From: Phlebopus portentosus
Lineage: Eukaryota > Basidiomycota > Agaricomycetes > Boletales > Boletinellaceae
Reading direction: 5' to 3'
DNA length: 64,000 nt
Assembly: GCA_037892935.1 (NCBI GenBank)
Contig: JAYXKI010000014.1
Span: forward strand, 372,001 to 436,000
Below, piece by piece: positions 18,223 through 51,101 of this stretch. The notes under the pieces are model-generated. The model did no database searches. It saw nothing but the letters and a program-made list of their open reading frames with translations, and was not told the origin of the DNA. Each line of letters starts with the position of its first letter. Positions within the stretch are counted from its first letter, which is position 1. The translations under genes were made by a program, and so were the position numbers.

Positions 18223-18321
18223 GGATTTCACTGTCCAACCATTACGAATACCCCGCCAAATTCGTCTAGCAGACGAGTTACACGTAGCCAATCCGCTCGA
18301 GTCCCTGTAGAACATCAGGTT

Positions 18322-20715: not shown

Positions 20716-20753
20716 TTGAGAGAAATCGGCGAGACGAGAATGGTAGTAACCAA

Positions 20754-26343: not shown

Positions 26344-26361
26344 CAGGAAATCAGTCCATTT
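26344..26361 (+). repeat. Left terminal inverted repeat, copy 2
   Basis: CAGGAAATCAGTCCATTT pairs with the right end at 50416-50433. It is identical to the left end of copy 1. Confidence 0.75.
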
Positions 26362-26369
26362 GGGTTATT

Positions 26370-27108
26370 AATGGATAGTGAGTTATAACACCATAGTAGT
26401 TTATAGTAGTACATAGTGTACTATAATAATGTATAGTAATATATAGATACATATAGATGGTATCCTATAGTAACGTATAATGCATAGGTATGAATAGCAA
26501 ATGATAGTATCATATAGTTTGATATCTCTGTATAAATTCTGATAAATAGTTATAGTCTATAGTTCAAAGAAGTGTATAGTTGTTCATAGCAGTGAGCTAT
26601 CTATATTAGTATCTAGATAGTAATAGAGGTTAGTTATACATAGTTAATATATGGCTAGTAATATATAGAAATATATAGATGCATATAGATAGTATCTTAC
26701 AGTAACATATAGTATATAAACATGAATAATAATCAATAGTATAATATAGCTTGATATCTCTATATAAATTCTGATAAATAGTTATAGTCTATAGTTCAAA
26801 GAAGTGTATAGTTGTTCATAGCAGTGAGCTATCTATATTAGTATCTAGATAGTAATAGAGGTTAGTTATACATAGTTAATATATGGCTAGTAATATATAG
26901 AAATATATAGATGCATATAGATAGTATCTTACAGTAACATATAGTACATAAACATGAATAATAATCAATGATGTAATATAGCTTGATATCTCTATATAAA
27001 TTCTGATAAATAGTTATAGTCCATAGTTCAAAAAAAGATATAGCTGTTCATAGTAGTAAGTTATTTATATTAGTATCCAGATAGTAATAGAGATTAGTTA
27101 TATAAAAG
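26370..27108 (+). repeat. AT-rich subterminal region with a 232-bp tandem unit (3 copies)
   Basis: The same sequence as 8160-8660 but with one more 232-bp unit (anchor TTCTGATAAATAG at 26537, 26769 and 27001). Confidence 0.8.
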
Positions 27109-28943
27109 GTAGGGAAAGTATAAACTCGACCAACAGTGATGTGCCACACCTTATACCTTTTGGTCAATAACCCTCCCACACAACATCTACAGAAATAAAG
27201 AAAATACAACATTTCAAATACAAATTCTGGGTGCAAAGATGTGTAAAGGGCACCTATAACTACAATTTGATCATTATAATTTCTAAAAATAAAGTAAAAT
27301 GAGCTTCCTATTTTAGGAAAAAGTCAAACTTAGCAAACTTACTCCCGTGAATTCTAGAGCAAGCTGAAAATTTTCAACAAGATTTTTGCTGCTTACAAAT
27401 ACAAAAATATTATGCAAATGAGCTTATTTGTAATACAATGACATAATTTACTAAGTATTTGTCATACCTTCATATAGTAAATCTGTCTGGGGGTGGAAGA
27501 GCTATCTACTGGCCTTACTGCCTTTTTCATATGTATTGTCACTCGCGACTTCTGTGATTTTTGTCACACAGAACACCTCATAATATAAAAATCACCATAT
27601 CTCACTCAATTTCTGACCTTTCTGCGTGATCTAAGTTGCTAAATCCATAGTTTTAAGATCCTCTTCAAACTCCAACACGGATGAAGAGAAATGAGCAAAT
27701 AATGAGTGAGATATGTCGTAAAAGGCCGATTTTAGACACTTCCTTCATGTGCATTTTTTCCTGCCCTCAGACTGGGTGCTACAACAACCTAGACTGCACC
27801 AGAGTGGTGCTATTGGCATAATATGAATTTACAGACATTAGATTGCCTAAGAATGAATTTATTTTGAGGTCTGGAGGCCCTTGAGAAAAGGTAGGTTTGA
27901 GCTCAGCTCAGACATGTATCAAACCAGCAGATACAACACAGAATAGAGCTCAGAGTCAGTCTGTAAATTTACAATAAAATTATTATATCATTTTGGACTT
28001 GCCTGTAGGACTGTAGAAGCAGGGATGAGGGCAGGAAAAACTGCACATGAAAGATGTGTCTAAAATCGGCCTTTTGCGACATATCTCACTCATTATTTGC
28101 TCATTTCTATTTATAATTGTTGAGGTTTGAAACCGATCTTAAAACTATGAATTAAGCAACTTAGATCATGCAAAACGGTCAAGAATTGAGTGAGATATGG
28201 TGATTTTTATATTATGAGGTGCTCTGTGTGACAAAAATCACAGAAGTCGCGAGTGACAATACATACAAGCTTCTAATATCTAAGGAGAGCCTGTACAAGT
28301 CAACTCAACCTCTTTGTGAGAGGAGAAATGTAAAACTTCCTGGGTCAGTCATGCACAGTGGGCAAACTGTTATTTAGACCTGGAATAAATTAATAACTAA
28401 ATGACAAATGAAATTTGAAATAACAAAAGGGATTAAATTATAAGTAAAGTCATGTGAGAAATGCATAAAGAAATTTGAAATCTCATAAAGGAAAGGTGCT
28501 TGCATTTCTTCTTGTGCGACATTTTATATTATCCCAAGGAAGACATTTGAAGTTTCTTTTGTAATCTTGTCAAGGAAGAAATAACTTTTGTGGTCAATGT
28601 GAGTTATTTCTTCCTTGACAAGATTACAAAAGAAACTTCAAATGTCTTCCTTGGGATAATATAAAATGTCGCACATGAAGAAATGCAAGCATCTTTCCTT
28701 TATGAGATTTCAAATTTCTTTATGCATTTCTCACATGACTTTACTTATAATTTAATCCCTTTTGTTATTTCAAATTTCATTTGTCATTTAGTTATGAATT
28801 TATTCCAGGCCTAAATAACAGTTTGCCCGCTGTGATGTCTCCTCGAAGATTTTTGCCACAGGGTCCTTCCAAATAAAGTTAGCTCAGGGTTCATCAGAGC
28901 CATCAGTCACGTGGCGGGCCGGTCGAGTTTATACTTTCCCTAC
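27109..28943. repeat. Inverted-repeat-bounded segment, copy 2
   Basis: Counterpart of 8662-10500. The 23-bp terminal repeats (27109-27131 and 28921-28943) are perfectly inverted here. It contains the long hairpin with arms 28354-28585 and 28603-28834 around a 17-nt loop. No coding sequence. Confidence 0.65.
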
Positions 28944-30194
28944 GTTATTACAGCCGTTTGCGTTAGCAATGGCACTCCCAAGTGTTTTTTTTTTTTTTTG
29001 AATGAAGTAAAGACAAAATATAACACGTGATGACTGGACTCAGTGGAAAATTTGGTTGGATTTGAGGGTCAATAGCATCACAAAATCATCAGTTACGACT
29101 CTTCTTTACTGAAACTTGGTTTACATGTGTTACTCATAGATTGAGAAAACCACAGTTTTTCTCAATGGCGATATCCAATGCAGGTCCCCTTAGGTGCCTT
29201 CCTACCCACTACTACCTCAAGATTAGAAGGTATTCAATTTTATTCTACAAATCAAATCTTTTCTTTCAAATTTTGACAGGCAGTAGGCAGTCAATGATTA
29301 ATTTACAAGCTTGTTCTGAGCAATTTGGTTGAAAATTGAGCTCAAGACAAAATGGGTAGTGCCGGAGGAAAGGTGGAAGGCATGTCAGATGTGGATTGTA
29401 ACAGCGAAGTCCATTTTCCCATCCACTTCTGAAAACAAATTCTCCTCATTCAAAAAAAAATCCAGAGCACCATTACTAACGCAAACGGGTGTAATAGGGA
29501 TATTTTGGATGTCTATACATATTCGATTATATATGCAGACCAAGAAAATTATAAATATAAGCACGTGAAATACACAGAAAAGATATTTAAAATGTCCAAA
29601 AGGGTATCCGAGGCTCGGGAATTTATTGCAGATATAATACATCATAAAATTTATGCGGTTTGATGTGTTATAGGAGTGCAGCTGCATCCCGGAAGCCATC
29701 TCAGGCCAAGATGCGTACGCATCGCAACAACTGAGTCAAGTCACGTGACAAAAAGCTGCGGATGCGTACGCATCTGGCCAAAGCTATACAAGATGGTGAT
29801 GTGCATCACGTTCTTTGATCATCTGTGAAGAATTTTTGCTTAACGCCCATGTATATCTGTACAGCCGTTTAATGGGTACGTACACATTCCCATAAAATTA
29901 TAAATCTGGGTTTGGGGAGGACTCCTGCCAGTTGCAAGTGCCTTGTTTCTGTATAGTGAGGGCTCTAGCACCCCTTAAAATTGAATTTTTTCGTCAGAGA
30001 TAGCCTCCTACATCCATGTATCTAAGCGTCTATTTCTTTTGTGAGTGGTGAACATCAAAATGTGATGGTGCGAAGGCATATTTGCACTTCACCCCCTATC
30101 TGCCCTCTGTTTTAATCACACGCCCTTCACTCCCATCCCCACTATCTTCGACACTCCCTTCTATACCATCTGTGATCACTTCCAGCACGAATAA
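28944..30194 (+). other. Kinase upstream spacer, copy 2, with two perfect palindromes
   Basis: No gene is present. GATGCGTACGCATC occurs at 29710-29723 and 29761-29774 with TCACGTGAC between them. Confidence 0.5.
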
Positions 30195-31265
30195 ATGGCA
30201 GGCCCTGCATCTGAGTGTAAGTAATGAATGGTGAATTGCCTTCGTAATGTAATGGCCCGCCCATAGCCAATATCGACTATCTGTTGTGCAAGTGCATTGG
30301 TAAAGGGTCGTTTGGGGCCGTATACCGCGCATTGAACCGCTCGACTGGCGATTTAATCGCAGTAAAGCAAGTTATTGACCAGGACGATAAGATACGAGGC
30401 AAGGCGGCCTCCGATGCGTTAAGGAATGAAAGTGAGATTCTAGGGAGCCTCAGCCACCCCAATATTGTGCAGTACTTGGGATTTGAAGGCGGGGATGGCT
30501 CTGAAATGATGTGAGTGCCTCTTGCACGCCTTTACCAGGCACTTAAGGGGCGTTTTCCAGGTTCATGGAATATGTCTTGAATGGATCTATCAGGGCCTGC
30601 TTAAGGGAGCATGGCAGGTTCGAAGACCAAGTTTGTCGGTCGTTCACGGGTCAAGTTCTTGAAGGAATTGGCTACTGTCACTCCAAAGGCATAATCCACA
30701 GAGTAAGCTGGTTTATTATTTTGTAACACCACATTTACTGAGCATATATGCAGGACTTGAAGAGCGACAACATACTTGTCGGTCCTTATGGGGTCTGTAA
30801 AATTGCAGATTTCGGCACTTCAAAGCGCACTGACGACGTTTACACGAACAAAATGCACTCTCCCCTCCGAGGCACATTAATCTACATGGCGCCGGAGGTG
30901 CTACGAGCAACGTTTGGATACAGCGCGAAAGTAGACATCTGGAGCTTGGGTTGTGTGGTGTCTGAGATGTGGACTGGCCATCGACCCTGGGAGGGCAGAG
31001 AGGTGGCTAATATTATTCTCGTGGTAAGCAGTGCTGAAATGGCATTGTTTCATGCTAACTAACTTGCTGCGGTTGTCTCTAGTTAGGAGGAAAAAAGCCA
31101 GAGCCCCCCTGCGTCCCACTGGATGCAGTTCCTGGGCCTGATGGGGATGACTTTAGAAGGCGCTGCCTTTCCATCAGCCCAGATGGGCGACCAACTGCAT
31201 CTGAGCTACGCCAGCATCCTTATCTAGCCGTGAAACCAGGCTGGTCCTTTACGTGTTTCAAATAA
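30195..31265 (+). CDS. MAPKKK-like protein kinase, cargo gene, copy 2
   Basis: Five exons match those of 11750-12820 exactly in position and phase (offset 18,445), again giving 286 codons without stop. Differences from copy 1 are few. They include Asn-to-Asp and Glu-to-Gly in the N-lobe, Met-to-Thr in the activation segment and Ile-to-Val near the C-terminus. No catalytic residue is touched (GKGSFGAV, AVK, HRDLKSDN, DFG, APE all intact). The upstream ATG present in copy 1 eight bases earlier is ACG here, supporting the chosen start. Confidence 0.95.
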
Positions 31266-31312
31266 GCTGCCTGCTTGCTTGCTCATTGTTAGCAAAAGCT
31301 CTGTAGCAGTTA

Positions 31313-31313
<1 letters not shown>

Positions 31314-31348
<35 letters not shown>

Positions 31349-31354
31349 TTGTTG
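31314..31354 (+). repeat. CTG/TTG microsatellite, copy 2
   Basis: Longer by about two triplets than the copy at 12870. Confidence 0.75.
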
Positions 31355-31437
31355 TTATAGCTTCTCTATATTTTCCCTAATTTTTATCCACCCCCGCGCG
31401 GCAGCGGCAGGGCAAATTTCACGTGATCAGTCGAGGG

Positions 31438-31503
31438 GATGCGTACGCATCCATCCGTTAGGGTACCGTGTCACGTGACAGTTTGGACGGATGCGTACAC
31501 ATC
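31438..31503. promoter_or_regulatory. Palindrome pair, copy 2
   Basis: GATGCGTACGCATC is perfect at 31438-31451; the partner at 31490-31503 has decayed to GATGCGTACACATC, a G-to-A change. TCACGTGAC lies between. Confidence 0.5.
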
Positions 31504-31509
31504 CATGTA

Positions 31510-32291
31510 CAGTCCCCTGACAAAAGTTTTCACCCCCTTTTTTACATGTTTTTTGCAAATTTCTCTGTCAATTTTTACTTGTTCCTTCTGAAAAAAATCA
31601 GCATTGTTCTGTCATAAGAAGTAACATTTCTGTGAAGTTTCATGAGAAAATACCAGAAATTGAGTTCAAAACACAGCTCGGGTGGTGTCAAATTATATAG
31701 GGAAAATGATTGACTCTTGGAGACTCCTTTCTTCATAAAAGTATTTCTACACAAGCTTCTAGCATGAGACTTTGTAAATATGCTGTTCTGATAGTATTGC
31801 GTATCATGTACATTTACTGGATTTTTCTTACATGTGTGAAATAGTCTGGAGGGCAATGAAGCTCAAGTGAGGTCAAAAATAGCCAAAACAAAAGGGAAAA
31901 TTGGCAAAACTGCCACTTTCCAACCCCAGCAAGTGCAGCCCAGGCTCTCTCGCTTGATACAAAAATCTGAAAAAATCATATGTTATTCCTACATATGAGA
32001 AATGTAAATGTGCAATATTTCATATTGTTTCAAGGACTTGTTGAGCCTCTGGAGGTCAAACAAGACCGAAAAATTGGGCCAATTTGGTGCATATAGTCAC
32101 TTTGGCCTGTTTCCAGTTCCAACTCAGTTTTCAAGTTTTCGCCATCAAATTTTGCATGTATGTTGGTTCATATCATAGAATGATTGTAAATTTTTTTCAG
32201 AAACAACAGGGCTGAATTGAGCACGAAAAAATGAAGATTACACCAAGAATGGCTCAAAAACATGGGTGACAAAACTTTTGTCATGGGACTG
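31510..32291. mobile_element. Tc1/mariner-type MITE, copy 2
   Basis: Same element and same TA target as 13059-13842, with a few small indels in A/T runs. Confidence 0.85.
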
Positions 32292-32293
32292 TA

Positions 32294-34091
32294 CTATTTA
32301 TTGAAACTCGAGTTTAATGTCAACTGAAATAAAAGAACAGAGAAAATGAGAGCACGCAAACCCAAATGAGGGAGGAGACCGGTACAAAATATACGGGGAA
32401 GTTTTACGATGGAGCACAAAAACACGATTAATGATATTCGGATAATAGAACATAAAGTCAGTATCGGTGTCAGGTAACCGTGGAGTTATTCGAAGGATGG
32501 AAGCCAAGAGTAAAGTGTATGTGTCAGTCGAGGTTGTTGAGGTTCGGTCGGGACGTCAAGAAGGCCATCTCTTGGGACCTCGTATAGCTGCACCTGGCTT
32601 CATATCTGGGCAGCATACGGCATTTGTCTTAGCAGGTGATCACTATCTTTCTATCACAGCCTAGGAAAGGTGCTCTTTCTGGACGCAAATGGTTGTCTAT
32701 GACTCTTGGGCAAATATCCAGAAGAAGAGCCAGTGATACCTTCACAAATGAATTATTCGATACAGCACTTCACTTATACAGCACTTCATTTACTTTAATC
32801 GGCAAGGTCAACAGTACCGCCCTGTACGTTCTTTACTTTCGGAATCTGTTCAGAAAAAAAAGGATAGGCAGTTTGCACCTGTAAAAATATACAAGAGAAC
32901 TCACCTTCTTCCCTTTCAACCTTTCTTTCCTCTTTATGCTCTGCTTCTTTCTTTCCTCGCGCTTTCGTAATCCTACCCCGAACTTCAGGTCGGGGTTTTG
33001 CTCTTCGAACTACCTCCTCATCAGATCAACCAGCCTTCTCTGAAAGTTTGAATCCAAAGACCAATCGCAGATCCTCCCCAAGCACCATGAAATACTTTGC
33101 CTGCTGCCAGAAGATCTGGCTACCGCACCACCGATGATACCCTCGATAGGGCAAGCAAGGGCAAAGCGCTGCGTAAAAAAGAAAGATGAAAAGGACAAAG
33201 GGGGCGTTCTCGTGAAGGGACTAGGCGAGGTGAATTGAAATACGGGATGATGAGACTGAGGACAAGCCGGTCGTACTCGATAATGCAGACGAACACATAA
33301 ATTCCGACCAGAGAAGTGAGGATGACATGGATATGAAAGTAGATATGTACAAATAAAAAAAAGAATGTAACGCACTTCTCCTGCTCCCAACTCGTCCACC
33401 GGCACTCCAGCCGCGATTGCGGCTTGCGCACCATCCTTCTGTGCATTTTCACGCTGGCGCGCGGTCTTCGACAACTTCACACCCATTTGCGGAGAGTATC
33501 GTTTGCGATCTGCGTAGGTTTAATCGAATTCGAGGCGACCAAATAGACGTGACGTATTGGGTGTGCCATTGAGCAAAGATCGTAAGTCCATGGATATCAG
33601 AGGACAGGAGATGTTTACCCACTTCTATAGTGTCCACGAGCTGACCTGTGTAGATTGTGATCAGCGTAGGCAGCGAGCTAGAGGCGGGTGGGCACGACGA
33701 TAGGCAAGTCGCGTTGACTTAAGCACACAGCTACCGGATTCGGCCAGTGCCTCTCACCCCACTATGCAATGGTCTTCTTCAGTCCTATTCCACTGGCTAT
33801 ACACATACGAAGAGGTATCAAGCTGTTCACAAAGATAGCAATATTGCACTTATTTCTCTTAATCGGTTCTGAACTTTTTGGGTCTGTGTAGAAAAGCCAC
33901 GCATATGAATTCAAACCGATAATCAATGACCAACAAACCGCATATCCTCAATCTAATGGCCCAAAATACGCAGTTTGAAAGAAATGCCAAGGCTGTTTCA
34001 ATTTTGGTTGAAAAAAATTTACATGAAATCCAATAAAAAATTTATGGACTACTTTACATGGCTTGTAAGCAACTCAGAATATCATTCCTGT
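32294..34091. other. Spacer including the doubtful minus-strand gene of copy 2
   Basis: Counterpart of 13845-15641. The possible minus-strand gene starts with ATG at 33486 and its frame runs to about 33010, differing from copy 1 at the 3' end through a one-base deletion. I recognise nothing else. Confidence 0.4.
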
Positions 34092-34219
34092 CACACCGGG
34101 CAAAAACTCATTCCGAGCCCTTAGAAATTTTGGTCGGAACGGGCGAGCTCTCATCTGACTGGCTCTTTCCATTTTGGGTAGCATTTTCATAGCTTGGAAA
34201 TGAGTTTTTGCCCGGTGTG
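34092..34219. mobile_element. 128-bp MITE-like inverted repeat, copy 2
   Basis: Same ends and position as 15642-15769. Confidence 0.65.
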
Positions 34220-35247
34220 TCTACATATCCAAGCCTCCCATACCTTTCTGGATATTGCAAGTATTTGTTACCGTTTTAGCTGCGAGTATCTATGCCACCG
34301 ATACTCTTTTGGATATTTAAAATATTCTTTTGGGAGTCTTTCATGGTGATGCTCGAAATACCTCCTCTTGGAATACCCAAATGGAAATCTTAACAGTGCT
34401 TTCAATATCCATGTAGATATAAGCCATTATATATCTCCCGCGGTGATTCCACAGCTGCCTGCTGTGTGGATGCATCCGTCGGGTGCCATGTCACGTGATA
34501 GTTTAGGCGGGTGCGTACGCATCCTGTCGAGATACATCTGACCACGTGACAGCTCTTCAAAGTTGGCCAGTAGGGGGTTTTGATAGTGCAAGGGTAACTC
34601 AACAAACGTGCATTGATACCTGAATTTTTGTCATGTATTTTACTGTATAAAAACTTTTAATTACATTCTGGCAAAATTCTAGAATCTCTTGGCCACAGGG
34701 ATTTTATGCAGTGCTAAATTTCAGCTCACAGCAGTCCTAAAAATAGTCTGGCATTGTCAGAAAGGCCCAAGCTTTGGTGGTGGCACAGGCCTCTAAGTAT
34801 GTCAATATGGGCAGGCTTGGGAATCATATCTTATTGCCATGTTTTGTGAGTGCTGCAATATGTAAGCTGATATCTAAGACTCAGCGCCCCTACTAGTACA
34901 GCTGGGATCCCATGTTTGAGTAGTACAGCTCAGCTCATAATGTGCTGTGCAAAGGAATGACCTTACATATACGTGCGTATCAAGGCTATGTCTGATTTTG
35001 ATTTTTCTTGTAAGCCCATACCGCCTGCGCTGTAAGGGTATGGGCTGCTGACACAGCAGTCTAATAGCAGCACCTGGTCAGTTCTCTCAGATCCAGAAGT
35101 AACAGCTGTCCCCGACTATAAATACCCTCCCCAGCCACAGCCACCATCGTAGATGGGCAAACTTTGTGAGCTGCTGACCTCTACACTAGCCGAGGGTAGT
35201 GACGTGGCAATTTTCAGCACAAGGTGCTCTCTGCTCCTACCAACAAC
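34220..35247 (+). promoter_or_regulatory. Transposase upstream region, copy 2 (empty site of Gypsy B)
   Basis: This holds GGTGCGTACGCATC at 34510-34523, the uninterrupted hairpin CCCATACC...GGTATGGG around 35018-35050 (the site Gypsy B hit in copy 1), and a TATA box TATAAATA at about 35118. The transposase ATG lies 130 bp past the TATA box. No gene in this stretch. Confidence 0.55.
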
Positions 35248-38390: not shown

Positions 38391-39082
38391 GAAGAGTCGA
38401 AGTAGGGTGTTTGATAATGTAGATGCCATTCAGGAGAAAATAGTCGAGAAATGAATTCAGGAACAGAGAGGTTTGAGTAAAGTAAGTAAGGGGTGTGTAA
38501 TTTTGTCTGATGATGCTTACATCAGGAAAAGCCCCATCACTTACTAAGACTTGCAACTTATATAAGGTAATGTACCCTCATTAACCGTCATATATCTGAG
38601 TTATGATGTCTCTCCCAGATTATATGGGGTGAATGTGCGTCTGAGGTCCTCCTACAAGACATTTATCAATAATTTTAGCATTACAGAGCCATTACTTCTA
38701 TGCAGTTGCTAATTTATTCTGGATTTATATACTACAGGTGGGTGCGTTAAGTCTTCGACCCCCTGGTTTAGGAAGGAGGATTTGCATGCTTTTTATAAAT
38801 ACCTATATATATAAATAGTACCACAGGCGTCAGATAGCACCTTGCCAACCAACTTGCCCATATCGGCAAAGGTGAGGGATCACCTCGTTTCGCAACTGTT
38901 TGTTTCCCGAGAAGGCATACAAATCACCTTCCATAAATAGGGGGGCCGAAGACTTAATGTACCTATCTATCGTTTGTTTCGTAGGTAGGATAGAGTCACG
39001 TGACTGCATGGCGTGTCAACTACGTCTCCCTTCTAGACGCTGCCTCCCTTACACCCACGCCCAACTCACCTCCGGAGTGACA
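38391..39082 (+). promoter_or_regulatory. Spacer and promoter of the JmjC gene, copy 2
   Basis: No gene. TATA-like TTATAAATACC occurs at about 38793 and TATATAAATAG at about 38808, with TCACGTGAC at 38997. The JmjC start codon follows at 39083. Confidence 0.5.
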
Positions 39083-42000
39083 ATGGCAGGCCTAAGTGAT
39101 GGGCCACTACGGCCACCTGACTCACCAACTACGGATTGTAGCTCTCTCTCTCCTCCTCCCGATGAACTGCCAAGCCCAGAGCAGCCTCAAGACTCTCCGC
39201 TCACGCCAGAAGGCTCTCCGCTCACGCCAGAGCAGCCTCAAGACTCCCCGCCCACGCCAGAGCAGCCTCAAGACTCTCCGCCCACGCCAGAGCAGCCTCA
39301 AGACTCTCCGCCCACGCCAGAGCAGCCTCAAGACTCTCCTCTCACGCCAGATCCGCTCACGCCAGATCCGCCCACACCCACCTCCCATCCTCCTGCAATG
39401 GCAGGTGAAAACCCTGATCCTCCCCAGCTATTGCGTGATGCAACAACAGATGAGGTCTTGTTCTCTCCACTGCTGGATGGCGTGCCAACTGCATCAGAGA
39501 CACTCAAGGCCTCTCCACCACCTCGCAATTATCTTAATAGCCTGATCGAGAGATTCCAGCGTGGCCCGAGCCCAGTCAATGCAGCTATGCTACTTTCCTC
39601 AGTTAGCTCTACAGTGAATTACTACATGCATTCACAGAGTGTGCGGGACCTACTTGTGCAAGTTGACTGTCAAGAGGACATTCCTGGAACATCCAAATTC
39701 CTCCTCTGCCGTCTGTACACTGTCACTCACGAGTTTAACAACAAATTCATCAACAGAGCCAAAAATGGTAATGTATTCACCAGATCTGCTTTCCTCGAGA
39801 TCAAGGAGAACGTGGCTTCAGAGTGGATGCATGGCTTTGCCCAGAATCTCGTTTTCGACAAGGTTGCATTCGCCCTCTCCAAGTGCCCTGCCGAGGATGA
39901 CAGGCCACTGCAATCCCCAAGTATAGGAAGTCTCGGCATTCACAAGAGTCTGAAGGTGTTTGACTGATATGAAGACTGGAGGACGACGCTTAAGGAGTTC
40001 AAAGAGGTGATGGAACACACCTGGAGGTACAACGATAACCAATACATTTTCCCCTGGAGCAAGGGCAACGCAATCTCTGATTGGGTAAGGGCGGGGTTCA
40101 TCGAGGGCGCTGATTCCATGGACGTTGTAAAGCCTCTGGTAGAATCCGACTACAGCTCCCAGCTGATGCCGTCCCTCTTGAAAGATGTTCCCGCGCAAAC
40201 CCCACCTCAGCCTGACTCTGGTAATGATGAGATGGACGTTGATGCGGATTCACAAGCTCATGCGGCTTCTGGTAACAACGATGGCACCCCTAGCCCTGCT
40301 AGGCCGGAATGTGACGGCCCTGGACAGATAGACGAGGTTTCACGATCTCTGATTCAGGCTCTGAACAAGACCTGGGGTAGCGCCAGAGCCAGCATGGTCT
40401 TTACTAACTTCTGCTATGCCGCACTTGGCTTGCGTGGTTTGATGCTAGTGAGTTAATTCCACATATGTATGGAGCTTAGACTGATGCTACTGGCAGAGAG
40501 GTGAACAGATCCATTTGGAGAAGGGCTCAATGAAAAAGCTATATGATCTACTCAAGTGCGTTTTCCCCTTCTAAGACAGACCGAATAGAGCATAATGCAT
40601 ACAGCAGCCCAAATTCGAAGGACACTGAGGATATCGTGAAAAAGAAGACTGCGGGAGACTTTCAACTGCTTCGCCCACTGTACGTTATGTCAATGATATC
40701 GCCAATTACCCTTCTGGGCAGCTCTGTTGTTAGCAGTTCCCATGAGCGGATTTCTTTATTCGCCCTTGCCCAGGTACGCCTGCGCATATTCTGTCGGTTC
40801 TGCACTTATGTTGAAGCATAGACTGCTACTGCTCGGGGACTTAAGAGAGACAGGACGAGAATGCATATCAAGTATATGCTGTTGCGGCTAGTGATCGGCA
40901 TGACTCTTTATGGTGCAAAGGTGTATGAAGTCGGTATTTCCACCATTTTAGGAGAATGTAACTCTCTCTGGAATGAGGAAAGCATGAGTGCTCCAGGCGC
41001 TCAAGCCTACATCCAAGAACAAAGCCCTCCTCCTAGCAGAGCTTCCTCCTACCCTGTGCCTGGCATTTCTCCGGTGGTCCCAGAGCACCCTTCTGCAAGC
41101 GATGATGGCTTAAGTGATGGTGGTTCAAATGAGGACGCAGAGTTCAAGAACTCAAGAGTGCTAGTCAGAGACACCAAGGTGACACCCAAGGAATGGGAAA
41201 GGATGCTGAAAGAAACCACTGATGAGACGATGTACCTTCATCGACGCTTGCTTTCTGCGATCCGTCAAACTCTTGTCGATGATATGAAAGGCGTGAACTT
41301 GCTAGGTGATGGCTTAGCCATGGTTGATGGAGTCCTACGTGACGCATATTCACAGGTGCAAAATAATAGTGGAAAGCCTTACCGGCTAAAGCCCATAAAG
41401 CTAGCATCATAGTCACGGATCCCAGTTGGGGCTCCCTTGGAGCCATCGAGCAAACGCATAGCGGACAACGATGGGGATGACAACTCCCGCCCTTCCAAGC
41501 ACATCAGGACTGGAGAAGAGAGTTCAAAAGCCACCAGCCAATGAAGGAAGGTGGGGCATAAGAAACGCAAGAGCGTGAAGATGGTCGTCGATGATGACGC
41601 CAGTAGCAATGGGGAGGAAGAAGGCAGGGGTGAAAAGGTTGTAGATGAAGAGAGAAGGGCGGATGTGGAGAGACCTGCAGAATTGCAAGGTGATGCCGAT
41701 GTCTATGAAGAGGAGATCATAGCCAACATTGGTGGGTCGACTGGTAACGGCCGGCACACCCTAGCATCGGTGGCACTCATTGAATTGAATGAAACTAGCT
41801 ATCAAGCATCAGCAAGCCTGCCAGTCCCTGATGTATACGGACAAGCTACAGATCTAGAGTAGCGAAGCTGGGCCATTCCCAAGGTCAGTGCAGTCTCAAG
41901 TTGCATCATCGCCTCGTTGGGCTAACTTTCCAAAAGAAAAAACCAGAATTCATATCTATTCACAATGTCCTAGTCATCAAATTCAAGCAAACGGAAAAGA

Positions 42001-43810
42001 CATCCAAGAAGGGAGCAAAGTTGAAAACCTATAGACTCGAATGGGAGAAAGAAAGTTTCACTGTTTATTCGTGGGACAAGAGGGCACGTCAGATGCACAG
42101 TTGCTCTCTACTTCTCACCTCTGACGCTGATCTTTCTCTTTTAGCAAGTTCTTGCCCAACACATCAAGGCTCTTATGAGGGACACGAGCTATCAGACTGC
42201 ACCGTACGCGATAGTACAAGTCTACTCGATAGACCAATGAGAAAATTTGAAGATTCTTGAGCAGCGCAGCATGTTTAGAAGTGGACATATACTTATTAAA
42301 CGGCATGGAAGGGACCTAGAGGCATTTGACGGTCATATGAGGTGCGGTATGAGGGAGGCCTTTGATACCGAGGTGCCAATCTCTGCAAACGGTGCACCTA
42401 CGTCCTTTACTGTACTTATAGGTCACCTACTGACACAAATCAAGACTGCACAGAGACAGAGGTGGGGGAGAATTTATTCAAGCAAGTGAGGGGAAACTAC
42501 CGAGACTTTGCCCACGCTACTGAAGTTGATGAAAAGAGCTAGAATGAGGCATTAAAGAAATACAGGGAAGACATGAAGAAATGGGAGAAGGACAGGGTGG
42601 AGTATGAAGACAAGCTAGCAGCATATAACGCAAGTATGAAGGAAGGGAGAATGAGTGCTAAGCCTTGGAAGAGACCTTCGAAGCCTGCTAAGCTTAGGGC
42701 AGAGCCAAAGATAGACGAGCTTAGCCACCTTCGCCCCTTAAACTTCTTAGATATGCCTCTAAGTGGAGACATTTTTGAAAGGTGGGCCCTACAACTACTC
42801 ACCTCCATACAATGTTTGTTTTGACCTCGCCCCTTTCAGACCTCTCGATGATTCATCAAAGTTCTTTGCATGACAGTCATTTGTGTGCGACAGCAAGCTA
42901 TATGTATTCTTCACCCTCTGTCCTCCTGAGCAATTTGGCAAGTCCTGGCTGCTGGCCAGCATAAGATCAGCCTGGTCAGATTGGCATATCGACACCACAG
43001 GGATGGCGACAGCACTTTACATGATTGACGGCAGAAAACTAATCTTTATCCCTCGTGACTTTCAACTGTTTCTGGCGGGCTAGCAAAAAGAGCACGACGG
43101 ATGTCTAGCATGCAACGCCGTACTGCTGGAAAGGGGAGATACCTTGTAAGTAACCCCCTCTAACCCGCCTCGACATGGCTCACACTTTGCTGCAGCTTAA
43201 TGAAGCCTGGAACTAGTCACTTCGTTGTTACGCTAGTCCATTCGATGGTAATTGGAGCTCACTTCTATTCTCTCTTGTCTATGAAGGAAATGCTCATGAG
43301 GCTGCTACAAGTGCACTATCTTGACAGGATAAGCACAAACGTCCTGCACAATACATTGCCCATTATGCTCACAAAATGCCTTGCTTCTTTGGCAGAATGC
43401 TGCGGTTTAGGTACGCCGCCAGATGCAGAGGAGAGGGTTGGGCTGGGTAAGCTGAAAGTCACACTCAAGGGCACAATAAATGAGGACCTTGCATATCTAC
43501 TCATCATAAATGCACACATCGATCAGCTGCAACCCGAGTGCTGCCCAGATGACACAGATGCATGGCAAAAACTCGAGAGTTTGCATTGAACTATCCACTA
43601 ATCAGGGGTGCGCTAAGATGTGTCATAGATCGTATGGAGGAGGCCACCTCTGACGCTCTCATGAGTGCAGAGGATGAATTCTTCAGAATAGTGAAGGACT
43701 TTGAAGTGAGGTTGGCAAAAGAAGTCGGAAATAGCTAGGCCAATGACAGTAGAAGCATTAAAGTAACTTGTGTAGACCATCGCCATAATGGCAGGCATAG
43801 CTGGCAATAG
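39083..43810 (+). pseudogene. JmjC-domain gene, copy 2, hypermutated
   Basis: Colinear with the copy 1 gene but with about nine in-frame stops. The ones I located are at 39965, 41410, 41542, 41860, 42238, 42540, 42871, 43081 and 43736. Each corresponds to CGA or TGG in copy 1, or to a shared CGA inferred from both. Single-base deletions also occur (for example near 43570). The differences from copy 1 are overwhelmingly C-to-T or G-to-A and cluster in parts of this gene while the flanking genes barely differ. The HID motif and the distal His region survive, but the gene is dead. The QPQDSPPTPE repeat has fewer units than in copy 1. Confidence 0.85.
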
Positions 43811-43873
43811 ATGTGTAAGTAATTAGCACGTGATACTGCTGTATAGCATCCAACTGCGGACACGTCGACTGCG

Positions 43874-43887
43874 GATGCGTACGCATC
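43874..43887. promoter_or_regulatory. GATGCGTACGCATC palindrome between JmjC and TET/JBP genes
   Basis: A perfect 14-bp palindrome, with GCACGTGATA about 45 bp upstream. The copy 1 counterpart is at 61651-61664. Confidence 0.55.
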
Positions 43888-44052
43888 CCTCCCCCCCCGC
43901 AATCAGCACCCAAGCCCCCACCCCCGGTCCCCTGCTTTTCTAGGCCACAGCTGCTCCCTGGGCCCCGGTTTGGATTCAGCTACACTTGCTTTTGGCAGGT
44001 AAGTGATCCCCAAACAGCCTCATCTCACCATAGCTGGCAGCCTGCTCAAGCA

Positions 44053-44525
44053 GAGGTGCTGAAAAGGCCGAGTGCTGCTGAGCCCGTGCTGCGTAGCCAG
44101 GGCAGTGCCAGCCATCTGGGAGGTGTGCTATGCGCTGCTGAACCCATGCCACTTAGCTGGGGCGGCGCTGGCACACTTCGGCCCTCTGCCAGCCATCTGG
44201 AGGTGCGCTATGCGCTGCTGAACCCATGTCACTTAGCTGGGGCGGCGCTGGCACACCTCGGCCCTCTGCAATCCAACCGGGAGGTGTGCTGCGCACTGCT
44301 GAACCCATGCCACTTAGCTGGGGTGGTGCCGACACACCTCGGTCCTCTGCCAGACACCTGGGAGGTGTGCTGCACACTGCTGAACCTATGTCGCTTAGCT
44401 GGGGCAGCACTGGCGCACCTCGGCCCTATGCAAGCCAGCTGGAAGGCATGCTGTGCACTGCTGAACCTGTGCCACTTAGCCAGGGTGGTGTTGCCGCACC
44501 TTGGCCCTCTGTGAGCCAGCTTGGG
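44053..44525 (+). repeat. 81-bp minisatellite upstream of the TET/JBP gene, copy 2
   Basis: About 5.5 units of an 81-bp GC-rich repeat (GAACCCATGCCACTTAGC core). Because 81 is divisible by three, several frames stay open on both strands. I regard those frames as by-products. One unit is a base shorter than in copy 1. Confidence 0.85.
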
Positions 44526-44640
44526 AGGTTGGGGGGGGTTGTGCTGGGCATGCCATAGCACTGCGCCAGCTGTCCACAGCCCTGAATCTCACCAGTCCTC
44601 TGTAGTCAGGCTAGCACTGAGCACTATTTTACAGGTAGAG

Positions 44641-46317
44641 ATGGCAGCAGGTACTTCTATTAAGTCTAAGGCAGCTGGTGCTGGCCAGCGAAATGAGAGC
44701 AGCACATCGCCACAAGCATCAGTTATAAAGCCTGCTTGCCAATCTGAGGGTGCATTGAGACTGGGTTTGCAGGCGAGCTTAAGGGCTCCAGGCCTACCTG
44801 GTGAGCAGCTAATCCCTCAAGGACTAGAAGAGTTGGCAGAAGTGCCCTCACCATCCATCGCTTTAAAACAAAAAAAATCGTTCGAGAGGCAGGGCATCTC
44901 GTGAGAAGCATGTCAAGCGACACAGGCAATATATGGAGCAGGTTAAAGAGTGAGTGGCCAGCTATTCTCCTACAAGTCTTGCTCAGCACAGCCTATCACC
45001 TGGTAGTCAACCGACATTCAACACCCCAGCTTCTCCAAAGCCAGAAGGCCATTGCAGAGGTTCTATTGGAGCTCCACTGGGTGATCCAGTCTTGAGTGCA
45101 CAGGAGTATGTGGTAGACCTAGATGTCCACCATCTTCAAGGGATAGGGCCAGGTTGGATAGGCATAGGTGACAGTAGGTGCATTGCTACATTTGCTAAAA
45201 AAATTGCTGAGCGGTAGATGCAGGTACAGGGCCAGAAGTTACATCCTTGGATAGCAGTGAGATAAAACGGCTTGTAGAGCATGAGGGGTGGCACTATATT
45301 CTAAATGACCCTAGGTAAGTCGCTGTTGGATTCCTAACTTCTATTCTAACATGGGCCATCAAGGAGGGCGCAGGTCTTGTTAGACAGGGGGAGATGAGTT
45401 TTTGCTGTTAAAGCCAGAACACCCAACAACTGGGACCACACTGTGACTGGGGTTGAGAAAGCCATGGATGAATTTAGCTTGGCAATTAACCTTGGGAACA
45501 AGAATCTCTTTAATCACAGACGAGGGGAGTTCCCAAGTTTTGTATTTGGTGATGCTGCACATGGAGGGGGACGATCAGTAAGCAGAGAGCCTCTCTCTAT
45601 CTGAATGAGACTCACTTAGCATGTATCTATAGCAACCTGCGACTGTAAAGGTCAAGGATAGCAGGGTAGAAGCTCTGCAAAAATTCCAAAATGATGCCAG
45701 CGTAGAGCATTATTTGGGATTTGTTTCTAGTAAGTTGACCTGTCCTGGCAATTGCTACTAGCCAGTTCTCATTGCTGCCAGGCACCTTCAAGACCTGGTT
45801 TCCACTCATATCTGAGCTCTATGAGAGAGAAAAGCGATGCACCGCGAGTCACAACAGCATAACAGCAAGTGCGCTTCTTAAATCGCAGTTCTCCTCTATG
45901 GCTCTTAACTTAGGTGGGGAGGTTGCAACATGCTGGCACAGGGATGCAAAGAATTTATTTTTTGGCCTCTGCTGTGTCGGTGTCTTTGGGTGCTTTGACT
46001 GGAGAAATTCTGGACAGCTGATGTTCAAGGAGGCGAAGGTCATCATTGAACTTAGGCCTGGAGATGTCGTACTGTTCCCATCAGCAGCCCTAACACATAG
46101 GAATGCTCCAATTGCCAACGACTCAAGCAGGAGATCAGTAGTTCTTTTTACAGCTGGGGCAAACTTTCAGCATATTGCTCAGGGGCATAAGATGGCAGGG
46201 TGCAGAAGTTATAAAGAGAGAAAGGAGGAGGCAGAGGCTGGATATAGACGTTCATGTGAGGGGTGGTGCCTTTACTCCACCCTGGAGGATCTCCAGAGCA
46301 TAAGAACCTGTACATAG
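44641..46317 (+). pseudogene. TET/JBP-type 2OG-Fe(II) dioxygenase, copy 2, N-terminal frameshift
   Basis: Same six-exon structure as the copy 1 gene at 62420. The last exon (45782-46317) holds the catalytic core: a WHRDAKN segment gives the HxD iron ligands. FGLCCVGVFGCFDW follows, then the LRPGDVVLFPSAALTHRNAPI stretch with the distal His, then SRRSVVLFTAG with the Arg expected to bind 2-oxoglutarate. The family oxidises 5-methylcytosine or thymine bases in DNA. Exon 1 has one extra A near 44875 relative to copy 1, shifting the frame to an early stop. The catalytic exons themselves are open, so use of a later start cannot be excluded. The gene ends 130 bp before a short open frame at 46447. 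Confidence 0.8.
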
Positions 46318-46446
46318 CTGATCTAGTAGCGTAGAATTGAAGGCTGCCACTGCCACCGAAAAATTGCTGTGGATAGCTTAGTCAGCAGAATTTTCCACGT
46401 CAGCAGGCATGCCTCGGCAACAACTTAGCTCTTAGCAACAAACATC

Positions 46447-46755
46447 ATGCCAACTAGGTGCCCCCACTCACAAGGCAGGCGTGCCCTCTCCCAGCTCAGC
46501 CTAGAGCCATTCGTCGAGGATGCCCAGCTAGCTCTACAGCACGAACCCCTGTCAAGGCATCATATTACATACGAGGAGTTTAGCCTTTGGACGACTTTCA
46601 TGTGGCTGGAATTTAGACTCGGAACGTTTCAACCTGCAAGTCTAGCAGCATTCAGCATCTACACTGCGCTCAGAACCACAGCCATCCAGGAGGCACCTCC
46701 AGTAATTAGGGACTACCTTGTACATGCTCTTGCTGTAAGACTTTTTCTCGACTGA
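46447..46755 (+). CDS. Short open frame, 102 aa, unrecognised
   Basis: ATG to stop with no intron needed. The protein has an acidic/aromatic middle (YEEFSLWTTFMWLEFRLGTF) and no recognised motif. It lies between the TET/JBP gene and the DUF6532-like gene on the same strand. It could be an exon of a larger gene or chance. Copy 1's version is outside the window. Confidence 0.3.
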   Translation: MPTRCPHSQGRRALSQLSLEPFVEDAQLALQHEPLSRHHITYEEFSLWTTFMWLEFRLGTFQPASLAAFSIYTALRTTAIQEAPPVIRDYLVHALAVRLFLD

Positions 46756-47230
46756 TCTGCGCCAGTCCTAATGTATGAAAACAGATAGAGTTGGCAAGGC
46801 TCTAGTATCAGGCCTGATAAGGGCTAGCACTTTACCAGCAATGTAAGCTACTTTACTCAGAACTACCTGTCTAAACAGCCGTTCTGATTAACAAAATAAC
46901 ATAACACTCAAATTCCCTAGGATAAGATTGTCGCTTAGGTTATGGCAAAAAATAATTTACAGTTTCCTGTTTGCTTTGTTTTTTTGCTTTGTCGTTTACA
47001 ATATAGACTTGATTGTCACTGCTGCCATATTCCATGTCTACTTGCAGCTCAGGTTTGCATCTGCGTATTACAAGGGCCTGCTCTTAGTAAGCCAAAGTGA
47101 GCGGCCGAACCGCAGTAGCTTAGCCAATCTCGGCTATTGCTTGGCCTCTTTTTCGCCCGCCCACTACAACTGCCACGTAGCATACGTACCGCTACTGCCC
47201 CCACCCACCTTCCTCCCCTCCCTAGCCTGT
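46756..47230. other. Spacer, nothing recognised
   Basis: Contains a T-rich stretch around 46970-46990 and no supportable gene. It presumably includes the promoter of the next gene. Confidence 0.45.
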
Positions 47231-49491
47231 TAAGATGCCTCCTAGAGCTGGCAAGTTCCTCAATCTTTACAGCACTTGCAAGCTTATCTCATCCTTATCA
47301 TAGCAAAGCCCAGAAAACTCAGGCAATTGGCAGGAGCAGCTGCGGTAAGGAGATTTACACCATTAAGAGTCGCTGGCATTTTAACCCTGCAGTAGCAGCA
47401 GCCAGAATCAAGGATTGGCAATCAAGAGAAGCTGCACTCTGCACCTCTAGCCTATCAGGTAAGCCTTAGCACCTCATTCTTGCAGGAACCCAGTGATAAC
47501 GCACTGCACCTTTTTACTTAAAGAGAACAACTCGCTCAAGGGGACAGCTTCCCTCTCCAGAGTATCTGGAGGAGCATGCCACTGCCTTAGAAGGTAGCAG
47601 GGCTACTGCTATAGAAGAAGTAGCGCTGCAGCAGGGAGAGGGTTTCCAGACTAATTTACAGGGATGTAGCGGTGAGCCTATAGCCCATCTATCTAAGATG
47701 TATCTGATATTGGTGGTTAGAGCCCCAGCCCTCCTTATGCAATCATAGCGATAGCCAGATAGAGGATTTCAGGCAGGACAGTGCTACTTTTTACGATGAT
47801 GGTGGAGGGCAGAGAGACGACGAGAGGACTAGCGAGGATGAGGTTAAAGATCAAGATGAAGCTGAGAAGGACAGCGGTGAAAACTCCAGCAAAGATAGCA
47901 GCAGCAGTGAGGATGGGTGTGGGAGTGACGATGGTGGTGGGAGCGATGGTGGTAGTGGAAGCTACCACAAGGGCAAGGGTGCGGAAGAGGCCTACTCTAC
48001 TGACAATAGCGACTGGGAGGCAGTTCAAAACAAGGGCCGAAACACAAGTGTTAAGAAACTTCTAAAGTCTAATCAAGAGGTCTTTATGGAGAGCGAGGGC
48101 AACCTAAGTGACGATCCCTCTGGAAAGGATGGCAAGCAGCGTAGAAAAGCTCAGAGAAAGCGGAAGTCAAGGCTTGAGCAAGGTAAGTGTCTACCAGCTA
48201 TTACAAGCTGTTACTAACAAAGGACAGAGCCAGGTCGAGCGAAGGATGACCACTTTCTGTCCAAATTCGAGGGTCCAGAGAAGCTACTTATGATTACTGC
48301 ATCTGGCATGCTCAGACTATATACGCTTGCCTACCAGTTTTTCCCAGACTACCATACACAGTCATCTACTCAGCGCAGCGTACTGAGTAAAGCAAGGCAG
48401 CAATTGGGTAGTAATAACCAAAATGGTGAGTAGCTTTTATAGGAGTGGATCTGCGTCCAAAGTGCTTAGCCGAGTTTACTTTCTAGAGTTTTCGGAGGAG
48501 CAGATACCAACAACTAACCGAATGATAGACTGTGTAAGTACTTCAATATATGGCATCGCTACAATTGACAGCTGGCCTTTAGCTCAGTAGAGAGACGACT
48601 ACCATAAAAGGGGCATTTATAAGAACTGCCAGAGAGATAGTGCTCGAGTACTACTCAATCACTCCAGGCCGAGATGATAAAGATGTCAAAGACATTTACA
48701 AAGGTCGTATTGAACAGCTTTCTGACAAGATCACTGAGGAGGTTAAGGAAACTGCGATGAGAAAGGCTCTTAAAGCAGCAAAGAAAGGCCGTGTAGCAGC
48801 ACTGATAGGTGACTTGCTTGAGGAGCCGAGCAGCAACTACATGTTTGCCACCTTAGATGTACGTCTGCCAACTTTTTCTTAGCAGTGAACTCATATCTCA
48901 ACGTCTCAGAGTGATAAAGGGGATCCTTACTCCCATGAAGCCATTCATGAGCTCATTGCGAGAACAGTCTTTACACATACCAAGGATTTGGTAGCTCTCT
49001 CTGAGCGCCAACCAGGCTGGGTCCGGCCAATACCAATCCATCTCATCGCAGTAGCTACACAAGCTGTAAGTTGCTTTACTGTAAAGAAGCCTATTTGAGA
49101 GCTAATATAAGTTAGATCTGTTGCGCGCTAGAAGAGCATTCTTCTGGAAATGCACAGAGAGCTTCAACTAGCTTTTCAAGTGCCAGGTACAGGTCGTCTG
49201 TCAATGTGTTGAAGGAGAACATAAAGCTCTTCAAGATAAATGAACCCGAGTCATTCGAGAAAGTACGAACAGCGATACTTAATATGGGAAAGTAAGCATT
49301 AGTATTATATACTATATAGTCTTCTATTAACATCTAAGTAGAGCTCGTCTATCTTCAAGGGGAAAGCGCATCTTAGAGCAGAAGAAGGTGGCAGTAGGCT
49401 ATAACCCTAATAAGAGAAGGCGTACTGACAGGTAAGTCAAAGTGAACCTTCTACTGTGATTTCGCCACTCATTACTAATAGTAGTGACTAA
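47231..49491 (+). CDS. DUF6532-like nuclear protein, cargo gene, multi-exon
   Basis: A spliced gene opening with MPPRA at 47231 and ending with TDSSD and TAA at 49491. The 5' exon boundaries are uncertain; one fit needs a GC-AG intron. The middle (about 47745-48180) is a Ser/Asp/Glu-rich linker ending in a basic, nuclear-signal-like KQRRKAQRKRKSRLEQ. The C-terminal half reads LLMITASGMLRLYTLAYQFF, then TIKGAFIRTAREIVLEYY, then an Ala/Lys-rich helix, DPYSHEAIHELIARTVF and an ICCALEEHSSGN region. This order resembles the basidiomycete-specific DUF6532 domain as I remember it. Introns such as 49098-49132-like short GT-AG gaps were inferred from frame continuity. Function unknown. It is the last gene before the right end; copy 1's version is outside the window. 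Confidence 0.55.
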
Positions 49492-50415
49492 ATATGACGT
49501 ACTCTGGCTATAGGAAGGGCGTCTTCGACTAGGCTCATCTAGCTGTTCCAGTAATGTAAGCAGCTTCTATTAGCTTCTAGAAGCAGCTAGCTCACCATTT
49601 GATAGCGCCTATATATTTCTTTCATCTTATTTTCCTCTCTTGCTCTTTTAATTCACCGCCATTCCTTACTTAATTGTAACTCTAATCATCCCTACGAGGT
49701 TTATATATATCTAGATCACTCTCAGAAGTGCTTAATAGGCGTGTGAATAGATTTAAACTGCAGCTATGATAATCTAAGTGCGCTACTATCTACTGTCTGA
49801 CTATGAACAGAGCAGTTATCAGCAACTATCTTTTACTAAGAATCTCTATCAGGCATTAGTATGCTATTCAGTAATATCCGCTACTAGTAATTATAAGCTA
49901 CTCACCACTTTATTAGCCTTCTATCAGTTTATACTGGCTAACAAATATAGTTTATTATACTTTATAATAAACTACTATTAATAACTATCTTGGTATAACA
50001 TAATATCCTCTAATAGGTACTGGCTACTATCTATGACTACCTACTACTACATAAGACTTTAGTCTAGTATCCGCTATAGATACTACTAATTACACAATAC
50101 TACTGCAAACTATAGCCTCATATCTGCTACTATTACCTGCTACCATCTACATACTAACTTACTCTAACCCCACTTATTGACAACTATTCAACAATATTGG
50201 TAGTTAGACAATATGTACTATCTACTACTTTGTAGCCCTATAAATAAATATCAACTATGTAACTATGGCCTCTATAAAGCTTTACAAGCCTCTATATAGT
50301 AGGGGGGTCACGATAAATCACTATAGACTACTAACTTATTATAGGCCTCTATATAGCAGCCTATAGCAGTAGGTAGTAGGGAGTAACAGGGAGTAGCAGG
50401 GAGTAGCAGTGGATA
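49492..50415. repeat. AT-rich right subterminal region, copy 2
   Basis: No gene. Rich in CTACTA/TATAGC motifs on one strand, with short tandem GGGAGTAGCA units next to the terminus (50385-50415). It mirrors the A/T-rich left subterminal region but is not a simple inverted copy. Confidence 0.65.
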
Positions 50416-50433
50416 CTTTGGACTGTTTTCCTG
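50416..50433 (-). repeat. Right terminal inverted repeat, copy 2
   Basis: The complement reads CAGGAAAACAGTCCAAAG, matching the left end at 14 of the first 15 positions. The flanking AT at 50434 equals the AT at 26342. Confidence 0.75.
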
Positions 50434-50973: not shown

Positions 50974-51101
50974 GTTAGAGAATGAAGAAGAGATGACAGC
51001 GGAAGAAAATTTGGACGCGACGCGTTATGCTTCGAAACTCCCACGCGTCGGATTGAAATGGGAGTGACCGCGGACGGTCACTATTTCATGAACCCGGGAG
51101 A

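Follow-up and report, generated by a model that had tools for sequence, protein, structure and literature searches.

Why should a 24-kb fungal DNA transposon carry, together with its transposase, a kinase and two dioxygenases of the kinds that act on methylated DNA and histones? The question is raised by element B, which lies in the window analyzed here (the whole stretch of 64,000 nucleotides from Phlebopus portentosus). Element B is a giant Plavaka-type DNA transposon, a 24-kb multi-gene unit bounded by terminal inverted repeats (TIRs); the unit is seen both in the sequence and in its copies, which supports the reading as a cargo-carrying giant transposon made in the original prediction. Our preferred explanation, held with moderate confidence, is that its TET/JBP-like and JmjC enzymes would counter host silencing. 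The element may hence come equipped to lift the silencing to which the host subjects transposons.

The element had been placed at 26344-50433, with inverted ends and AT flanks. The element itself stands, and each border lies 3 bases further out (table below). The termini follow the consensus CATCAGGAAA(T/A)CAGTCCA and have the CATCA..TGATG form by which PlavakaB is recognized. The AT proved to be the inner part of this terminus, and both the empty site and the comparison of flanks across copies ruled it out as a target duplication, which is AA instead. The empty site is another copy of the LTR retroelement that hosts B; it lies within copy C2, lacks element B and reads as the B flanks fused at a single AA. 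As a check against chance, the 18-base end motif was counted with at most one mismatch allowed: there were 62 occurrences across the 38.4-Mb genome, against 0 for a backward-read control. Element B is inserted in an LTR retroelement, which is itself inserted in copy A.

Features of the window, with element B and the repeats in which it is nested
Feature	Position	Strand	Remarks and evidence
Copy A, left part	8122..16574	+	
LTR retroelement hosting B, nested in copy A	16575..52729	+	LTRs 16575-18202 and 51102-52729
Target duplication AA	left 26339..26340, right 50437-50438	.	flank comparison
Element B, Plavaka-type transposon	26341..50436	+	24,096 bp; ends and AA duplication, empty site, colinear copies
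Left terminal inverted repeat, CATCAGGAAATCAGTCCA	26341..26358	+	end comparison, motif search
Kinase gene	30248..31262	+	four exon pieces, 30248-30508, 30547-30690, 30742-31050, 31083-31262; exon edges approximate, start codon unsettled
Transposase gene	35248..38390	+	zinc-finger-like exon 1, then Plavaka domain; PF18759, exon model
JmjC gene	39083..43735	+	proline-rich N-terminus, JmjC domain ~42.6-43.4 kb; model on copy C1, P0004, profile
Tract with 158/175 private substitutions of B	39150..45950	.	
TET/JBP-like dioxygenase gene	45398..46314	+	last exon 45739-46314, 192 aa, WHRD...H
DUF6532 gene	47698..49098	+	six-exon model; PF20149 30.6 bits, cut-off 24
Right terminal inverted repeat, CATCAGGAAAACAGTCCA (minus-strand reading)	50419..50436	-	17/18 bases identical to left repeat
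Copy A, continuation	52730..64000	+	right end C14:465042, beyond window

The colinearity first noted with a second copy extends to seven two-ended copies on five contigs (B, A, C1, C7a, C7b, C2 and C6), found by searching the host genome for further full-length copies; C3 has the left end only and a copy at C6:316645 the right end only. Six of the seven were read entire, and copy A is represented by its parts in the window and its last 343 bp. The copies are 96.7-99.0% alike, with one internal order common to the six fully read ones. All five predicted genes (transposase, kinase, JmjC, TET/JBP-type and DUF6532-like) lie between the ends and recur in 7/7 two-ended copies, the JmjC gene in pieces; the kinase is present in 8/8 left-end copies. 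A matching 2-bp target duplication flanks five of the seven copies and is missing in two, and a 3-bp duplication was seen in 0/7. Nested repeats are hard to assemble, which would favor an artefact or a chance order of unrelated repeats. We reject this reading as highly improbable on the strength of the colinear copies on separate contigs, the exact empty site and an independent gene model from Sanghuangporus sanghuang (P0004), in which the JmjC and TET cargo is linked as well. Neither of the outcomes that had been named as refuting the original prediction was encountered.

The description of the element as complete from end to end applies to its ends and not to every gene, because the transposase frame (near 37030) and the JmjC frame are shifted in B relative to other copies. 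Stops or frame shifts affect the transposase in C7a, C2, C7b, C6, C3 and B and the JmjC gene in B, C1, C2, C7b and C6. Pfam assigns the transposase to Plavaka, with PF18759 scores of 215.4 and 71.4 bits over the cut-off of 26.3; this domain is the defining criterion for an autonomous Plavaka (PMC8290104), and the CATCA..TGATG ends and 2-bp duplications fit PlavakaB, for which 2- or 3-bp duplications are described in the main text of PMC12730594. HQWH, SDKT, VDPAGD and ETRDLE were picked by eye as candidates for the H(3-4)H motif and the DDE triad. The same source describes, without making it part of the definition, a C(2)C motif between the second D and the last E of Plavaka transposases; with D and E placed by eye, no C..C was found in frames 36212-37030 and 36973-38007 or in 53922-55583 of copy A. 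A KDZ transposase was rejected, as Pfam gives Plavaka and the matches listed by the KDZ domain search include none inside a copy.

The TET/JBP-like gene is so named because its Tet_JBP score of 20.4 bits, although the best Pfam match, falls below the curated cut-off of 34.9. Protein searches gave four matches in total, three of them from S. sanghuang, and P0001 and P0002 support the gene. Across the four sequences of alignment A1, H206, D208 and H259 of P0002 are invariant, that is, HxD and a downstream H are conserved at 41% identity; HxD is found in 4/4, and the HxE of the PE type in none. Six of eight close copies have a TET frame without stops. PDB searches using the TET sequence gave nothing relevant, and an AlphaFold model of the frame from four sequences had a mean pLDDT of 33.5. 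The JmjC gene was undetected by Pfam, and single-sequence PDB searches were not significant. With the two-sequence profile A3, 14 of 18 PDB rows were KDM2/7-family chains (KDM7/PHF8/KDM2A; E-values of 4.3e-10 to 9.1e-5), and H77, D79 and H138 form a conserved HxD...H, the catalytic residues being kept at 33% identity. By this profile match and motif, the predicted JmjC protein is of the KDM2/7 type. Proline-rich words had swamped the first JmjC protein search, and P0003, a low-complexity match, was discarded as a JmjC relative.

Do JmjC and TET belong together? In P0004 they are joined in one protein, in the same order as in the element, and a second JmjC-TET pair lies elsewhere in the genome, at C7:733-742 kb. 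This pair, which has a gene with a KDZ-associated CxC6 domain ~8 kb away, could mean that an older JmjC and TET element or gene block became nested in a Plavaka and is now mobile with it as one, and a 505-bp stretch in the left arm of B matches sequence next to the second pair at 78.6%. We consider such a composite origin unlikely: the six fully read copies have the same order from end to end, the end motif (at most one mismatch) is absent from their interior, and the two genes face each other at the second place but run in the same direction in the element.

The kinase (Pkinase 44.5 bits, over the cut-off; kinase chains matched in PDB) aligns with the host-like gene L033 and shares with it an intron in HR^DLK. 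On this alignment, the predicted kinase goes back to a copy, since diverged, of the 3' portion of a MAPKKK-like gene, a relative of which is still in the genome; the element has taken up a portion of a kinase gene, introns included. Our home-made exon models, used for the transposase, JmjC and DUF6532 genes, miss weakly biased exons.

Are the extra genes merely passengers, moved by their position between the ends and decaying without any role, as in Pack-type capture? The kinase derived from a host-like gene, introns included, would fit this reading, as would the cargo frames broken in several copies and a TET pN/pS of 0.96 among copies (values for the other genes are weak evidence). Related elements fit it too. 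About two dozen 8-kb elements share ends with the 24-kb family and carry, without a recognized transposase, clearly decayed parts of Argonaute, Rpb1 and Hsp70 genes. However, passive capture does not readily account for JmjC and TET occurring together at two places in the genome and in S. sanghuang, for catalytic residues kept at such low identities, or for a kinase dN/dS of 0.24, which is rough given a dS of 1.12 to which the host branch contributes. We regard passengers as possible rather than probable.

The copies also carry a record of mutation. The share of C>T/G>A among private changes ranges from 29/34 to 245/266 per copy, with 79/119 in C7a, and CpG sites take half or more of the private mutations, which are mostly C to T; lost in the projection were, at the right, the ends of C7b and C6 and, at the left, the doubled end of A, C6 and C3. 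This pattern is as methylation would give. With a candidate JmjC histone demethylase beside TET in one element, and with such mutations in the genome, the idea of counter-silencing can be put to the test on an element whose ends are exact, whose empty site is known and whose copies are nearly identical.

How might the preferred counter-silencing explanation work? Judging from its family, the DDD/E transposase would cut at the CATCA..TGATG ends and paste the whole 24 kb elsewhere. The products of the adjacent TET/JBP-like and JmjC (KDM2/7-type) genes would strip methyl marks from the DNA and histones of the element itself, whereupon the transposase could be expressed and get to the termini in the face of host silencing. 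A truncated, unregulated form of action is probable for the kinase. The recipient LTRs are 99.8% alike, which argues for a recent move of copy B, and with the frames of both its transposase and its JmjC gene shifted, it probably owed the move to the products of other copies. Points that speak for this explanation are the precise insertion, the two-ended copies, the Plavaka domain, the linked cargo, the KDM2/7 profile matches, the stop-free TET frames with HxD and H kept, the second JmjC-TET pair, the methylation-like mutations and the kinase dN/dS; points against it are the TET score, the poor TET model and fruitless PDB searches, the broken frames, the absent C(2)C motif, the two copies without a duplication, the TET pN/pS and the C>T changes, which pile up in the copies despite TET.

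A wider version, which we consider doubtful, would make the 24-kb element the master of a counter-silencing system, contributing a DNA and histone demethylase module (possibly a single protein, to judge by the gene model from S. sanghuang) and the host-MAPKKK-derived kinase. The 8-kb elements that share its ends would depend on it and would spread an Argonaute, truncated and altered at its catalytic site, with which host RNA interference could be obstructed.

How much of this is new? So large an element with several apparently regulatory enzymes had been thought unusual, but transposon-borne TET, Plavaka included, is already in print: the main text of PMC12730594 (Kojima 2025) describes TET-bearing PlavakaB families in Agaricus bisporus and Gymnopus confluens, which share with element B the Plavaka transposase, ends, duplications and internal TET/JBP gene. 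That text also cites an earlier study as implying a TET-Plavaka association in other orders and states that transposon-borne TET is thought to aid escape from methylation, without experimental proof. What appears to be new here is the pairing of TET with a JmjC gene of the KDM2/7 type, a kinase that goes back to a host-like MAPKKK gene, and a TET that has HxD, whereas the PlavakaB active site described there is the PE-type HxE. The terms JmjC, protein kinase and DUF6532 are absent from its main text, and we found no JmjC or such kinase on a TET-bearing transposon in the literature on Plavaka and transposon-borne TET. Our element hence extends complete TET-bearing Plavaka to a host probably outside the Agaricales and adds another active-site type.

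Among the other systems described there, the TET-bearing Kyakuja/Zisupton (KDZ) elements and CcTET share an Agaricomycete transposon TET with HxD, but KDZ elements have a KDZ transposase, other ends and other duplications. Where the AG type has Gly/Ser five residues after the H and Asp eleven after it (positions 331 and 337 of CcTET), our sequence has, by gapless count, Asn (N211) and Cys (C217). The TET-bearing IS3EU of rust fungi likewise combines transposase, TET and a kinase gene in a DNA transposon; it belongs to another transposase superfamily, and its kinase is an alpha-kinase and not MAPKKK-like. Starships, as outlined in PMC12134995, are also giant, cargo-carrying and fungal, but their defining feature is a tyrosine recombinase and their known hosts are Pezizomycotina, whereas element B has a Plavaka transposase and inverted ends; no tyrosine recombinase was found by Pfam in three plus frames at 35.4-50.4 kb, one minus frame at 26.3-35.4 kb and the kinase frame. 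The enlarged En/Spm elements of Chondrus crispus (PMC6431247, in the part describing them) come from a red-algal host and are likened to element B by size and ORF number, as oversized multi-gene CACTA-related elements of 16-20 kb with 4-5 ORFs.

Our analysis of the 38.4-Mb genome (23 contigs) shows that a 24-kb unit lies between the inverted ends of element B, the Plavaka-type transposon of the window, and that its insertion is precise, recent and family-wide. Self-comparison of the window, positions 372001-436000 of contig C14, revealed three layers, each nested in the next: another copy of the same transposon, A, is broken by an LTR retroelement, which in turn contains B. The matches of A to B at the retroelement borders overlap by 5 bp, which fits the retroelement's own target duplication. 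B terminates in CATCAGGAAATCAGTCCA and, inverted, CATCAGGAAAACAGTCCA. A second copy of the same retroelement, lacking B, sits inside C2, another copy of the transposon, and is the empty site for B: its sequence at this site equals the two flanks of B joined at one AA, with 1 base differing in the 60 compared.

Nested features of the window (window positions)
Feature	Position	Size	Remarks
Copy A	8122-16574, then from 52730 on		Broken by the LTR retroelement
LTR retroelement	16575-52729		LTRs of 1,628 bp, 99.8% alike; contains B
Element B	26341-50436	24,096 bp	Ends plus AA on both sides

The left 501 bp of B match 8 places in the genome at at least 97% identity, and the right 600 bp match 8 at at least 99%. 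Pairing of these ends gave seven two-ended elements (B, A, C1, C7a, C7b, C2 and C6), a left end only (C3) and a right end only (at C6:316645). The six copies compared at full length (B, C1, C7a, C7b, C2 and C6) are colinear; the C3 comparison covers 20 kb. Identity between pairs of the eight copies is 96.7 to 99.0%. Three copies have received later insertions (12.7 kb in C1, 6.6 kb in C7a, and a 12.1-kb retroelement plus a 1.6-kb piece in C2). Matching 2-bp duplications flank five of the seven two-ended copies; those of C7b and C6 do not match. The left arms of A (9911-10391) and B (28354-28834) each contain a perfect-looking hairpin of 233 bp (arms 98 to 99% complementary, 15-nt loop), and 81-bp tandem repeats, open over long stretches in at least two reading frames, lie between the JmjC and TET genes (44118-44579 and 61819-62361).

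What does the unit carry? The transposase was assigned to Plavaka by Pfam, and its first exon is zinc-finger-like (PF13894, under the cut-off), but it lacks the C(2)C motif reported for Plavaka transposases. Its frame is shifted near 37030 in B, is stop-free in A (553 aa) and C1 (599 aa), and has stops or shifts in the other copies. The DUF6532 gene (30.6 bits in Pfam) is present in all seven two-ended copies, in the right-end-only copy and at C16:2045.

The kinase frames contain the motifs AVKQV, HR^DLKSDN, ADFGTSKR and APEVL. Kinase DNA occurs in all eight left-end copies and only once elsewhere in the genome, at 66%, in the gene L033 (contig C1, 2487045), which we take to resemble a MAPKKK of the BCK1 kind. 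Because three exon pieces (214 residues) are 65, 57 and 64% identical to the L033 protein, both proteins terminate in GW(S/T)FT(C/G)FK, and the HR^DLK intron lies at the identical place in both, we conclude that the element acquired its kinase by taking up genomic DNA, introns included, of the 3' part of a MAPKKK-like gene such as L033.

For the JmjC gene, of KDM2/7 type, the C1 gene model encodes 1,198 aa before it meets a stop within the domain. Across the six gene pieces examined, neither A nor C7a has a stop, or any shift apart from the one separating B from all others; stops or shifts occur in C1, C2, C7b and C6. A domain profile built from P0004, a Sanghuangporus sanghuang gene model, and the C7 locus described below matched KDM7, PHF8, PHF2 and KDM2A chains in 14 of 18 rows (best E value, 4.3e-10), the other 4 being ubiquitins at 0.07 or worse. 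The 192-aa frame of the TET/JBP-like gene (20.4 bits in Pfam, under the cut-off) is stop-free in six of eight close copies. The sole close protein relatives found are from S. sanghuang (95 to 97% identical), whose genus is placed in Hymenochaetales; the host is probably a member of Sanghuangporus. P0004 (1,794 aa) runs from the JmjC protein through TET to the start of the next gene, the order of the element, and P0001 and P0002, from the same species, comprise TET and the beginning of the next gene; JmjC-TET as a single protein is a prediction of the P0004 gene model only. Another TET-like gene, 41% identical and with HxD retained, lies at C7:733-742 kb and faces a JmjC gene that belongs to the same family as the element's. 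About 8 kb upstream of this pair lies a gene with a CxC6 domain (86 bits), which is associated with KDZ transposases; the domain search gave no KDZ match on contig C7. The diverged pair has ordinary-looking genes on its flanks (C7:725-742 kb; L035, L034 and L036), and the region is either an old element or a host locus.

TET genes are already known in Plavaka and other fungal transposons, according to PMC12730594. The literature searched yielded neither a JmjC nor a MAPKKK-like kinase gene on such an element, nor a complete TET-bearing Plavaka outside Agaricales. We propose that the element is mobilised by DDD/E chemistry, that TET and JmjC may counter host silencing, and that the kinase may contribute signalling.

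Summed pN/pS between copies is 0.48 for the kinase, 0.62 for the transposase, 0.43 for JmjC, 0.96 for TET and 0.46 for DUF6532, values that are weak because of few changes, CpG bias and common ancestry and that do not support constraint on TET. Longer-term signs are a kinase-L033 dN/dS of 0.24, which is rough since dS is 1.12, and metal-binding residues kept at 41% (TET) and 33% (JmjC) identity.

Changes private to one of the eight copies compared are mostly C>T or G>A: 160/175 in B (82 at CpG), 43/53 in A (26), 29/34 in C1 (19), 79/119 in C7a (41), 119/137 in C2 (67), 245/266 in C7b (130), 54/60 in C6 (37) and 103/111 in C3 (59). CpG makes up 771 of 5,210 C-dinucleotides. This excess, measured on element copies alone, is what deamination of methylated cytosine would give. 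In B, 158 of the 175 private changes fall within 39150-45950 (2.33% versus 0.13% of comparable sites), with C-to-T on both strands. This could alternatively reflect a targeted mutation burst, but the nearby copy A has only 53 private changes. The LTRs of the recipient retroelement differ by only 0.2%, and therefore the tract probably arrived with the donor of B, for example, via conversion from an older copy. The local excess contrasts with PMC12730594, which states that no hypermutation was detected in Agaricomycotina.

The 18-base end motif occurs 62 times genome-wide with at most 1 mismatch (control motif, 0). These ends cluster on C1, C2, C6, C8, C14 and other contigs (e.g., 10 in 185 kb of the 3.26-Mb C2 and 6 in 141 kb of the 1.38-Mb C14), perhaps in centromeric regions, and are scattered on C3, C4, C12 and C15. 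Genome matches to the element ends include, on the left, 22 at 82 to 85% and a further one at 74%, and, on the right, 22 at 75 to 78%. Five such elements examined (L029, L032, L038, L039 and L040) are 7.8 to 8.2 kb long, with the ends of the 24-kb element and a different interior, and partial scans recognised no transposase in them; they presumably form a dependent family. By end motif, 2-bp duplications match in four of the five; in the fifth, L040, the motif search had taken a later motif, and the end placed separately gives TT/TT.

On their minus strand, the 8-kb elements carry part of an Argonaute gene (PAZ, ArgoL1, ArgoL2 and Piwi all over the cut-off in the L038 gene model), with 25 genome matches of at least 112 aa at 82 to 100%, 19 of them stop-free. 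Piece by piece, it is 40 to 74% identical to the Argonaute gene on C19. Judged from its sequence, this part is decayed or slicer-dead, since the N-terminal portion is missing, PIWI is interrupted by about 0.7 kb, and FRAS replaces the FRDG of the C19 gene, presumably the place of a catalytic Asp. Its pN/pS is 0.63 to 0.79 (4 comparisons). The 8-kb elements also carry pieces of Rpb1 domain 2 (49.4 bits) and Hsp70 (41.7 bits), seen on the plus strand of L032:1-3600; the Rpb1-like DNA has 22 matches at 92 to 100% and 18 at 81 to 85%, several of the latter close to contig ends.
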